Shown here piece after piece: positions 29,902 to 37,032 of a stretch of 46,275 nucleotides of DNA. The notes beneath the pieces were generated by a model. It saw nothing but the letters and a program-made list of their open reading frames with translations, did no database searches and was not told the origin of the DNA. The translations under genes and the position numbers were made by a program. How positions within the stretch are numbered: the first letter of the stretch is position 1; every line of letters begins with the position of its first letter. The stretch comes from Candidatus Chloroploca sp. Khr17 (GTDB lineage Bacteria > Chloroflexota > Chloroflexia > Chloroflexales > Chloroflexaceae), in the NCBI RefSeq assembly GCF_004138165.1, contig NZ_RYFF01000042.1, positions 1 through 46,275 on the forward strand. Reading direction: 5' to 3'.

Positions 29902-30058
29902 GGAGTGCCGACTTATGGTCTTCCAGAAATGAATCCGGTCTCGCCCGCGCAGGCGGGCTTCGCTTCCCATAGCCGAGGGCTTCAGCCCCACGGCATCGGG
30001 CGGATAGCGGATCATTTACTGCAAAACCATCAGTCGGCGTCCGGCTCAGCCGACTGAT
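29902..30058. repeat. MITE-like element, copy A
   Basis: Begins GGAGTGCCGACTT and has a roughly 116-base interior, 29914-30029, identical to 36904-37019 except at three positions. Its right end is rearranged into an AGTCGGCGTCCGGCTCAGCC hairpin. The interior has imperfect 23-base inverted arms (ATGGTCTTCCAGAAATGAAT against its partner). It lies at the left edge of the restriction-modification island. Confidence 0.75.
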
Positions 30059-30079
30059 GAGTTTTAAGAATTCCATCAG

Positions 30080-30131
30080 GGAGTGCCGACTTCAGTCGGC
30101 GTCCGGCTCAGCCGACTGAAGTCGGCACTCC
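30080..30131. repeat. Perfect 21-bp hairpin of the GGAGTGCCGACTT type
   Basis: Arms 30080-30100 and 30111-30131 are fully complementary around a 10-base loop. The arm core GAGTGCCGACTTCAGTCGGC equals the end of MITE copy B at 36865. No gene lies in the rest of the 29856-30213 gap. Confidence 0.75.
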
Positions 30132-30213
30132 GGTTTGCCTGATTTCATGTTTAAAAACCATACGTCGGCACTCCGAATCGAGAGTAATGCTGATCCGATC
30201 CTTTTGAACCATG

Positions 30214-31116
30214 TCAAGCAGCGGGGTGATCATCAAGCTTAAGCGCACCTTGTTCAAGCGTCTGCTCAGCAGAAGCTTGCATCGCTTCAGGTCGGAAATT
30301 AAGCACCAGGACTTCGCGGTTTTCGACACGGGAGGTGCCGTTTTTTTCGGCTTTCATACCTGAAAACGAGCGAACTGGCAAAATATAGTATGCTTGCGCT
30401 TGAAAGATGTCTCTGATTTCGGGGATATCATAGGAAGAAATAATCCATTTGCCCTTGATCTGTTTTAAGCTATCATACAATGCATAGTGTGAGGCCCAAT
30501 CACGCATATTATGAGCATAATTACAACCATTGCCAGGATAAGGAGGGTCAACATAAAAAACGGTGGTGGGACTATCGTATTGTTTCAGACAATCACGCCA
30601 ATCGAGATTCTCGATAATGACGGTACGAAGGCGTTGATGCACTGGTTCAATGCGACTACGAAGGGTCTTCAGCGCACCAAACAGACGGTTGCCATGACCA
30701 CCATCACTGACACTCGTTTGAAACCGTGGATAGGCTAACTCCCCACCCCATCCTGCCATAATCAAGTAATAAAAACGATGCGCCCGCTGCACATCAGTTA
30801 GCTGGGAAGGCTCAACTGAGGCTAAACGGACATACTCGGCACGTGAGACTAATTCTAAGTCAAATGCTTCAATGAGTGCTTCCGGTTGGTACTTTACAAC
30901 CCGAAAAAAGGTGATAAGATCCTCATCTTTGTCATTGAGCACTTCAACGGGGCTTGGTGGCTTCCCAAAAAGAACCCAGGAGGCACCAGCAAAGACATCG
31001 ACAAAACAGGTATGGGCAGGAATCAAAGGGACGATATATTTGCGTAGTCTGGATTTACCTCCGACCCATTTGAAGGGACTATTGATTGCTTTGTAGTGAT
31101 CATCACGTTCCGTCAT
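30214..31116 (-). CDS. DNA adenine methyltransferase (Dam/D12 class)
   Basis: A 300-residue N6-adenine DNA methyltransferase of the D12 class. Motifs in order: FKWVGGKSRL (residues 15-24, SAM and start of motif X), FVDVFAGASWVLF (motif I), and FYVDPPYPG (motif IV, DPPY catalytic) near residue 190. The C terminus EVLVLNF is family-like. It probably methylates a GATC-like site and protects against the divergent nuclease gene. The region is visibly more A+T-rich than the flanks. It is divergent from the HTH-nuclease gene with a 59-base intergenic region that contains an operator-like palindrome. The gene could also be a solitary Dam, but the context favours restriction-modification. Confidence 0.87.
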   Translation of the reverse strand: MTERDDHYKAINSPFKWVGGKSRLRKYIVPLIPAHTCFVDVFAGASWVLFGKPPSPVEVLNDKDEDLITFFRVVKYQPEALIEAFDLELVSRAEYVRLASVEPSQLTDVQRAHRFYYLIMAGWGGELAYPRFQTSVSDGGHGNRLFGALKTLRSRIEPVHQRLRTVIIENLDWRDCLKQYDSPTTVFYVDPPYPGNGCNYAHNMRDWASHYALYDSLKQIKGKWIISSYDIPEIRDIFQAQAYYILPVRSFSGMKAEKNGTSRVENREVLVLNFRPEAMQASAEQTLEQGALKLDDHPAA

Positions 31117-31136
31117 GAAGGTATCCCTTTTTCATT

Positions 31137-31155
31137 TTGTCTCTAATAGAGACAA
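31137..31155. promoter_or_regulatory. Palindromic operator between methylase and HTH-nuclease genes
   Basis: TTGTCTCTAATAGAGACAA is a palindrome with perfect 8-base arms and a 3-base centre. It lies between the two divergent start codons (31116 and 31176), where an XRE-type controller would bind to regulate both genes. Confidence 0.65.
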
Positions 31156-31175
31156 TTTACCATGGATCTGCTTGC

Positions 31176-32252
31176 ATGTCAAACCCAATGCCAACCCAAC
31201 TGTTTGGAACAAAACTTCGCAGCTTGCGAATGCAACAAGGCCTTACGTTACAACAACTCGCCCACAAACTTGGTCTGACGGCACATGGCTACATCAGTGA
31301 GCTTGAAGCCGGTAAAAAGGCTCCAACGCTTGATTTTGTCCTTGGTGTAGCTCGTCTATTTAAGCTAAGCACTGATCAACTCCTGAAAGATGAGCTTGAG
31401 TTGCCTGAGCATAGCATAGCACAAACGCAACCTGACTCTTTGGCTTTTATTGAGCGCCCTCCAACTGCTGATGAAATTGAGCGGCTTCGGCTCATGTTGA
31501 GTACGTTTCAGGATGGTAGTGGTATGGTGAAAGCTGGGCCTTCAACGCTCCCCGGATGGCGTGATTTTGAACGAGTTGTCTCCACAGTCTTGCTTGGTGA
31601 AGCACCTGAGAATAAGGCTGTTTTTGATGTGCTGCTGCAAGATCGAGCGAAACCACAGCTTCGTTATGGGTTGTCTTGCAAAATGCGCAGCGAATTACAT
31701 CGTGTCACACGCCCCCAACGTGATGGGCGTGTCACGATTGAAGAGTCTAATTCGGCTGGTGAATTCAAGGCTGCTATCAGAGCACAAGGGATTACGGATG
31801 CCGAATATCACTTGCGTGCTCAGGAAATAGGCCTGACTCTGTTGGAAGTTATTAAGCAACGTAAGGAACGTGCCAGCATCTACAACAATGGTACCGTCGA
31901 TATTGAGCATAGCTATTACCTTGTGCTCTTGTGGAGTCGTCGTGGGAGTTATCAGTTATTTCAGTTCAGCCTCCATATGCCACAGGCTGATACGTTGCAC
32001 TGGTACTATCCCCATCCAGAGTCTCGGCATCTAAATGGCGACGATGCTGATGCAAATCGCATCTTTGAATGGTATCCTGACTCTGGTGGTCAATTGAAAT
32101 ATTACCCTCATGCCACGGAAGCTGTCTGGCAATCGGATATCTTTCATCTTGAACCGTTGAACCATGTGAAAGGATACGGGTTAGCCGAGAAAGCTGCGAC
32201 CTATTTTCCTGAGGCTTGGTATAAGGGCAAGGAGTTAGGAGATAGGAGTTAG
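31176..32252 (+). CDS. XRE-type HTH protein fused to a putative restriction endonuclease domain
   Basis: A 358-residue protein. The N terminus is a Cro/XRE helix-turn-helix (MQQGLTLQQLAHKLGL followed by YISELEAGKKAPTLDF, residues about 14-50), as in controller (C) proteins. After a linker, the C-terminal part (residues 120-358) reads like a nuclease: an Asp in VFDVLLQDR near residue 151 and GLSCKMR near 166-172 fit a D-x(n)-[E/S]xK pattern of the PD-(D/E)xK fold. I do not recognise the exact family, and the nuclease call is inferred from context. It diverges from a D12 methylase, so a two-gene restriction-modification system with a self-regulating nuclease is likely. The start at 31176 is chosen over ATG 31188 and a TTG at 31137 that lies in the operator. 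Confidence 0.62.
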   Translation: MSNPMPTQLFGTKLRSLRMQQGLTLQQLAHKLGLTAHGYISELEAGKKAPTLDFVLGVARLFKLSTDQLLKDELELPEHSIAQTQPDSLAFIERPPTADEIERLRLMLSTFQDGSGMVKAGPSTLPGWRDFERVVSTVLLGEAPENKAVFDVLLQDRAKPQLRYGLSCKMRSELHRVTRPQRDGRVTIEESNSAGEFKAAIRAQGITDAEYHLRAQEIGLTLLEVIKQRKERASIYNNGTVDIEHSYYLVLLWSRRGSYQLFQFSLHMPQADTLHWYYPHPESRHLNGDDADANRIFEWYPDSGGQLKYYPHATEAVWQSDIFHLEPLNHVKGYGLAEKAATYFPEAWYKGKELGDRS

Positions 32253-32343
32253 GAAACAGGCCGAGCACATCAGGACGCGATGGACAACTCCGAAGGCTAA
32301 AGCAGCCTGAAACCTCGTCTAACGTAACGCAAGGAACAAGCAT

Positions 32344-36864: not shown

Positions 36865-37032
36865 GGAGTGCCGACTTCAGTCGGCTTCCCACTCAGCTGA
36901 CTGATGGTCTTCCAGAAATGAATCCGGTCTCGCCCGCGCAGGCGGGCTTCGCTTCCCCGAGCCGAGGGCTTCAGCCCCACGGCATCGGGCGGATAGCGGA
37001 TCATTTCCTGCAAAACCATAAGTCGGCACTCC
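36865..37032. repeat. MITE-like element, copy B (168 bp)
   Basis: Terminal inverted repeats GGAGTGCCGACTT (start) and AAGTCGGCACTCC (end at 37032). The interior is nearly identical to copy A at 29902. It contains no gene and lies between comEC-like and lycopene-cyclase genes that converge. The remaining bases of 36779-37093 show only the hairpin. Confidence 0.8.

Follow-up and report, generated by a model that had tools for sequence, protein, structure and literature searches.

Candidatus Chloroploca sp. Khr17 is likely to carry an acquired Type II restriction-modification (RM) module that unites in one polypeptide two proteins which are normally separate, the controller (C) protein and the restriction endonuclease (REase), and in which the methylase is made first and then repressed via a single operator. 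Sequence or structural models directly show that the two parts are fused, that the nuclease has the fold of such enzymes, that the methylase gene is divergent, that one conserved operator lies at its predicted promoter and that the site is empty in sister genomes; on sequence grounds, the fusion protein probably represses the methylase, shifting expression towards itself. The analysed DNA, referred to as the window, is the whole stretch from position 1 to 46,275 of contig NZ_RYFF01000042.1 (assembly GCF_004138165.1), in which a D12 adenine methylase gene on the reverse strand lies beside a forward open reading frame (ORF) combining an XRE domain with a nuclease. The features are as follows (window positions):

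29914 to 32330, no strand: inserted block of 2.4 kb with the whole module, low in GC; empty site in two same-genus genomes
30214 to 31116, reverse: D12-class N6-adenine DNA methyltransferase, 300 aa, the protective partner (Pfam MethyltransfD12, E 1.2e-23; PADLOC MTase_II PDLC03253, E 1.7e-48)
31137 to 31155, no strand: predicted palindromic operator (C-box) TTGTCTCTAATAGAGACAA, its centre near the predicted +1 of the methylase gene
31154 to 31159, reverse: predicted -10 (TAAATT, TG before it) of the methylase promoter, sharing 2 nt with the operator edge (promoter scan and conserved bases)
31177 to 31182, reverse: predicted -35 (TTGACA) of the methylase promoter (promoter scan; GTCAA conserved past the operator)
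31188 to 32252, forward: fused controller-restriction enzyme gene, 354 aa (358 aa from ATG 31176; open frame, homology-supported start, structure model)
31194 to 31400, forward: XRE/HTH controller domain, residues 3-71 (Pfam HTH_3, E 8e-11)
31284 to 31304, forward: probable recognition-helix region H33-L39 (HGYISEL); His33 co-occurs with the canonical operator
31401 to 31442, forward: interdomain linker, without ATG; the weakest model block is residues 71-80
31443 to 32249, forward: Type II restriction endonuclease domain, PD-(D/E)xK-like fold (PADLOC REase_II PDLC03417, E 1.3e-40)
31626 to 31628, forward: Asp147, candidate for catalysis, located where the first core strand begins, invariant in a 29-row alignment
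31674 to 31682, forward: Ser163-Cys164-Lys165 in the second core strand, candidate motif for catalysis (29 rows: K165 invariant, S and C at least 90%)
31740 to 31742, forward: Glu185, in the third core strand, an acidic residue that does not vary among the 29 aligned rows

An earlier note on this DNA had described an XRE helix-turn-helix (HTH) joined to a nuclease-like domain, and the Pfam and PADLOC matches, which fall into a single frame, agree with it. Among PDB sequences, the relatives of the methylase are the DpnII methylase (E 3.4e-10) and, more weakly, Dam. The frame from 31137 to 32252 on the forward strand is open throughout. Its first codon, TTG at 31137, had been taken as the start of the ORF and was rejected, being merely the first start codon past a stop, situated within the palindrome and absent from relatives; homology backs ATG 31188 or ATG 31176 instead. 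Since relatives begin with M(Q/K)RFGEKL, which aligns with MPTQLFGTKL, the gene probably starts at ATG 31188, or alternatively at ATG 31176. The 59-base divergent gap (31117 to 31175) proposed earlier is correct provided that ATG 31176 is the start, and the D...SCK residues are indeed present, as D151 and S167-C168-K169 counting from 31176 (D147 and S163-C164-K165 from 31188). Pfam and NCBIfam searches recognised only the HTH and the methylase and gave the nuclease part no family; eight Pfam families matched relatives of the nuclease, each in one or two of 29 members, and look like chance.

Of 400 genomes from the phylum that were searched for the family, five have the nuclease, the window's own included; the other four carry a methylase, a separate small XRE gene and then the nuclease. 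Within the class, 2 of 158 genomes were found, again including its own. An alignment query of the one-genome-per-species GTDB set yielded 39 loci and one of viral contigs yielded a single locus; single-protein scans of viral contigs and genome contigs as well as tblastn against phages returned no relative, and a plasmid search gave one nuclease-only relative and two HTH-only matches. The 38 loci considered here comprise the window and 37 loci from the GTDB scan (39 minus L047 and L048), with L021, L027, L033 and L036 counted once together with L009, L008, L010 and L011, respectively (same places), and with L052, which looks like the same place as L013, unused. By their record titles, family members come from seven phyla, and nearly all of these records are metagenome bins.

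As befits a Type II RM system, the restriction-enzyme gene adjoins a DNA methyltransferase gene in all 38 loci, window included. In 37 of them, as is characteristic of C proteins, an XRE HTH is encoded directly ahead of the nuclease and in the same orientation: separate in 35 and fused in two (the window and L016). The remaining locus, L050, has no recognisable XRE and its XRE gene looks truncated, while two of the 35 separate XRE genes (L025, L046) look damaged. In the unfused order, the methylase gene reads away from one side of the operator and the C gene, followed by the R gene, from the other, with C and R overlapping by 4 nt in 12 of these 35 loci (start codons chosen by rule). An actinobacterial-type nuclease branch (L002, L047, L048 and L051, all outside the 38) has a convergent methylase that is 25-29% identical and no HTH match within 2.5 kb; one such relative lies on a Micrococcus plasmid, another on a viral contig. 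By its gene order, this type would mean that the nuclease family has two ways of arranging its control.

The perfect palindrome that the earlier note had placed in the divergent promoter region was borne out as TTGTCTCTAATAGAGACAA, with two exact 9-nt arms at 31137-31155 and 1 nt between them; a terminator or hairpin reading was discarded because the arms are 1 nt apart. At up to 3 mismatches, it has one match in the window versus a shuffle mean of 0.02 (2 of 100 shuffles had one), and its 17-nt core has a single exact match in the 6.38 Mb genome, with two other places at 2 mismatches. Scored against the window's own palindrome at a cut-off of 15/18 positions, the operator is present in 35 of the 38 loci, exactly once per locus (below the cut-off: L013, L022 and L039), and no other place among the 339,207 scanned positions of these loci reaches 15/18. 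Far from being absent in homologous loci, the site thus recurs in 34 of the 37 others and is therefore more than chance. Several loci are close kin, so that these counts are not independent events. In base-shuffled intergenic stretches (300 tries per locus), the observed score went unreached for 36 of the 38 loci, and was reached for L013 (48/300) and L039 (180/300).

A conserved palindromic C-box in the control region is what would be expected of a C protein. Two C-boxes at the C-R promoter were not found, as the second-best site within 250 nt scores 8-12/18 versus 9-14 in shuffles (38 loci); a diverged second site may exist. Because there is a single site per locus, the XRE protein is best regarded as a C-like controller with one operator and not as a standard two-box C protein, and a PvuII-like two-box control was likewise rejected for want of a second site. 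Among the 35 operator-bearing loci, 30 have GTCAA (belonging to TTGACA when read on the opposite strand) 21-28 nt past the operator, 22 of them at a distance of exactly 22 nt; five lack it. With a 17-nt spacer from TTGACA, the end of the predicted -10 touches the palindrome, which would consequently be centred near the methylase start point. For the fusion gene, the promoter scan found no (rightward) promoter downstream of the operator.

With the palindrome at the predicted start of methylase transcription and a second site looked for in vain, repression of the methylase is predicted. When the module enters a cell, the strong promoter of the methylase would fire immediately and, by overlap, restrain the weak divergent promoter of the fusion gene. 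The accumulating fusion protein would then occupy the palindrome as a dimer through its XRE part, on top of the methylase start point, and repress the methylase, which would free, and perhaps directly stimulate, the divergent promoter; the nuclease would thus rise only once methylase has been made. Since nuclease and repressor are a single molecule, shut-off of the methylase would be tied to nuclease dosage. The earlier proposal that the protein delays its own synthesis at its own promoter finds no support in that form, given that the palindrome is centred near the predicted methylase start and that no second box for a nuclease promoter was found. The outcome of the methylase-repression circuit, nuclease after methylation, may nonetheless be the same as in the self-delay picture, and the fusion protein may affect its own synthesis by promoter competition, activation or repression.

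Another plausible, albeit somewhat doubtful, scenario is that the same fused protein uses the palindrome mainly as a direct activation site for its own gene (EcoRV- or PvuII-like), the bound dimer bringing RNA polymerase to the promoter that reads rightward, while repression of the methylase would be secondary. The operator does lie upstream of the fusion gene, the EcoRV C protein is described as doing both from one high-affinity site (PMC6237814), and the fused CR.NsoJS138I raised the reporter of its own promoter 23-fold (PMC3850674). However, the distance from the operator to the C start is variable while that to the methylase TTGACA is near-constant, and a second, repressing box was not found.

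Because a first fold search with the whole protein was dominated by HTH proteins, the nuclease domain was predicted and searched alone (AlphaFold pLDDT 90.7, pTM 0.86). This structure prediction, which the earlier note had suggested as a check, revealed a PD-(D/E)xK-like core and no C-terminal fold unrelated to nucleases. In the VIA-align 2 search, the domain matched 3ndh best (Z 9.5, rmsd 3.9, 179 aligned residues), followed by HinP1I (Z 8.0, rmsd 4.2, 168 aligned), SfiI (Z 7.4, rmsd 4.0, 166 aligned) and EcoRV (Z 6.9); the first 33 rows are titled restriction enzymes, nine different ones with many EcoRV entries, and below them come Holliday-junction resolvases and an unrelated Rep15:Rab3B complex at Z 5.6. 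Foldseek with the domain gave no PDB match under E 0.001 (EcoRV at the top, E 0.064), and a profile of 29 relatives against PDB sequences found no restriction enzyme up to E 1, the one match (E 0.2) being unrelated. The structure of PvuII is in the PDB. Orthology to R.PvuII, which was covered through this PDB search, is accordingly not indicated.

The PDLC03417 match covers residues 92-354 of the searched protein (P0001), and the same profile is matched by all 29 members of the nuclease alignment. The core elements follow the PD-(D/E)xK order of helix, three strands, helix and strand (H39-49, E63-66, E73-82, E99-103, H119-144 and E158-164 in the nuclease-domain model). By sequence, the Asp of the first strand and the Lys of the second are D147 and K165, and E141 is likewise invariant in the alignment, which holds 29 of 42 nuclease-bearing sequences (left out as broken, partial or, in some cases, for other reasons: L002, L027, L033, L035, L040-L046, L049 and L050). 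Where an acidic residue two positions before the Lys is characteristic of the fold, a Ser is found, so that the motif reads D...S-C-K, and an invariant Glu185 stands on the third strand. Ser/Thr motif variants with a displaced Glu occur in Cfr10I-type enzymes.

In the window nuclease, 6 of 81 conserved positions are changed, tied for most among 26 rows (median of the other 25: 1), and its branch is long (1.5) in the nuclease tree (33 rows, without L033, L041-L046, L049 and L050). Nuclease activity is therefore not to be assumed, and the enzyme may be weakened. That it is decaying or inactive altogether, the protein being kept as a methylase repressor (or the whole module decaying), seems unlikely to us: the changed positions and the long branch would fit, as would the nuclease frames broken in at least 10 of the 38 loci, but the window's own frame is intact over 354 codons and retains D147, K165, E141 and E185, and model confidence is high across the nuclease core. 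The interrupted frames are those of L033 (= L010), L040-L046, L049 and L050, and 11 with L027 (= L008), whose C-terminal nuclease piece lies in another frame; they may reflect decay or sequencing errors in metagenome-assembled genomes (MAGs). The methylase matches in one piece without a stop in 33 of the 38 loci.

The fold of the controller domain resembles that of many XRE proteins, the first rows including C.BclI (Z 10.8) and C.AhdI (Z 10.6). In the model of the whole 354-aa fusion protein (pLDDT 91.2, pTM 0.75), the least confident residues, 71-80, are in the linker. Given that C and R are adjacent or overlapping and mutually out of frame in most relatives, an indel introduced by sequencing or assembly could in principle have joined two neighbouring genes. 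We regard such an artefact as very improbable, since the junction lacks an ATG or an obvious Shine-Dalgarno stretch for the nuclease, the linker and the nuclease N terminus share one frame with no homologous tail in the other frames (by eye), and a second genome has the same architecture with a similar linker length. An in-frame TTG at 31440, in the linker, has no obvious Shine-Dalgarno stretch (judged by eye).

This second genome, L016, is a Dehalococcoidia record ('chromosome: 1'), and with the window it makes up the two HTH-nuclease fusions among the 38 loci, the kind of fusion beside a D12 methylase that the earlier note had recommended looking for. The two do not group: a single origin was rejected at AU p 0.03 in the nuclease tree and 0.0302 in the methylase tree, a weak rejection owing to long branches, and in the latter tree the window forms a pair with the unfused L045 (SH-aLRT 99). 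The methylase tree was built from an input of 36 rows, without L043 and L046 (matched in two pieces), and L024, L049 and L050 were dropped for stops. Judged by these trees, the fusion would have arisen twice, with evidence that is only moderate because the branches are long.

Loci without His33 lack canonical half-sites in 3 of 3 cases versus 5 of 33 loci with His (Fisher p 0.008, for a test that was chosen post hoc and ignores kinship). It covers 36 of the 38 loci, without L025 (canonical operator; its helix could not be recovered from where the match starts) and L050 (HTH absent); L039 was scored as 'none'. The replacements are Tyr in L013, Asp in L039 and Arg in L044, where the operator change is symmetric. 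At 3680-3720 of L039, the family operator is missing, another palindrome-like stretch lies in the same gap (by eye) and the helix is changed (SDGFISN); this locus may represent an operator switch. Type II recognition sites are shorter than 17 nt. As the conserved element spans 17 nt, is altered symmetrically on both sides in L014 and L044 and changes in step with His33, the idea that it is no protein operator but a methylation-sensitive element, namely the system's own recognition site within the methylase promoter, is very improbable, even though promoter-methylation control exists in other systems (PMC6237814).

The module has a GC content of 45-49% (500-nt windows within genes) versus about 54-65% in its flanks, and is absent from the same place in both of the other same-genus genomes compared. 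There, the neighbouring flanks (91-92% identity) are separated by 28 nt (G260) or 69 nt (G222), whereas they are 2,417 and 2,442 nt apart in the window in the two comparisons. In the simplest reading, the window's lineage probably acquired the module horizontally; alternatively, two losses may have occurred in the same-genus genomes. The insert sits between xanthine-dehydrogenase-like and amidohydrolase-like genes (named by eye from translations). An intergenic direct repeat of 132 nt, 95% identical, is located at 29907-30038 and 36896-37027, and inverted-repeat units, TCAGTCGGC...GCCGACTGA, lie near it at the left edge of the insert. It is possible that the repeat at this edge was involved in insertion.

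The C-REase fusion as such has been known since 2013, when Liang and Blumenthal described five in the PvuII family, CR.NsoJS138I, Mru1279I, Asp90I, Gsp7428I and Oni7112I (PMC3850674). CR.NsoJS138I was active both as nuclease and as C protein, while the authors reported seeing no activity of the Meiothermus fusion; they also considered that C-REase fusion may have occurred more than once (PMC3850674), and a 2025 review cites their work for fused C-REases (PMC12707154). The window protein shares with these fusions the N-terminal C domain, the C-terminal REase, the single ORF and the divergent methylase. However, their REases are R.PvuII orthologs (PMC3850674), whereas the nuclease found here is of the PDLC03417 type with 3ndh, HinP1I, SfiI and EcoRV as nearest folds, and the single palindromic operator at the methylase start is a further distinction. 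The window fusion would work like a PvuII-type C-REase but is placed outside that family. In PADLOC, the profiles for REase_II (PDLC03417) and MTase_II (PDLC03253) are both matched directly by the window's nuclease and methylase; the former describes the nuclease alone, with a fused XRE domain in 2 of the 38 loci examined.

The proposed circuit most resembles other systems in which a C site governs the methylase gene. C.Kpn2I inhibits the methylase promoter, thereby favouring the divergent C promoters (PMC6237814; summarised in PMC12707154), and a C protein acting on a strong methylase promoter, with gain for overlapping divergent C promoters, is what we propose here. Kpn2I differs in that the C.Kpn2I site lies inside its own gene, described as without obvious paired inverted repeats, and in that C and R are separate, with a constitutive promoter of its own for the nuclease (PMC6237814). 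Two C-boxes at the C-R promoter are typical of C proteins but not universal, C.Kpn2I being different (PMC6237814). In EcoRV, a high-affinity C site overlaps the methylase promoter (PMC6237814). Both Esp1396I (PMC4041747) and EcoRV (PMC6237814) resemble the present module in having a C site controlling the methylase gene and an XRE-type dimeric protein; they also carry two C sites at the C-R promoter, whereas no second site was found here.

What appears to be new here is that controller and REase are fused in a nuclease family other than that of PvuII, and under a single operator; in the open-licence literature searched, no title or abstract start reports a C-REase fusion outside PvuII relatives. 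Tentatively, and at somewhat less than even confidence for the statement as a whole, we propose that C-REase fusion arose on at least two occasions in a non-PvuII family controlled through one palindromic operator at the methylase start, without a separate box for itself, such that the nuclease is itself the methylase repressor and its dosage sets protection. If this is true, each chain would carry two dimerising domains, and operator-binding and cutting dimers may compete, which would amount to a built-in threshold. The compact one-operator circuit, with both fused and unfused members, would allow comparison of the fusion's effect on the timing of methylation and restriction. Should fusion have happened repeatedly in a further nuclease family, the coupling of controller and nuclease would look like a recurrent solution.
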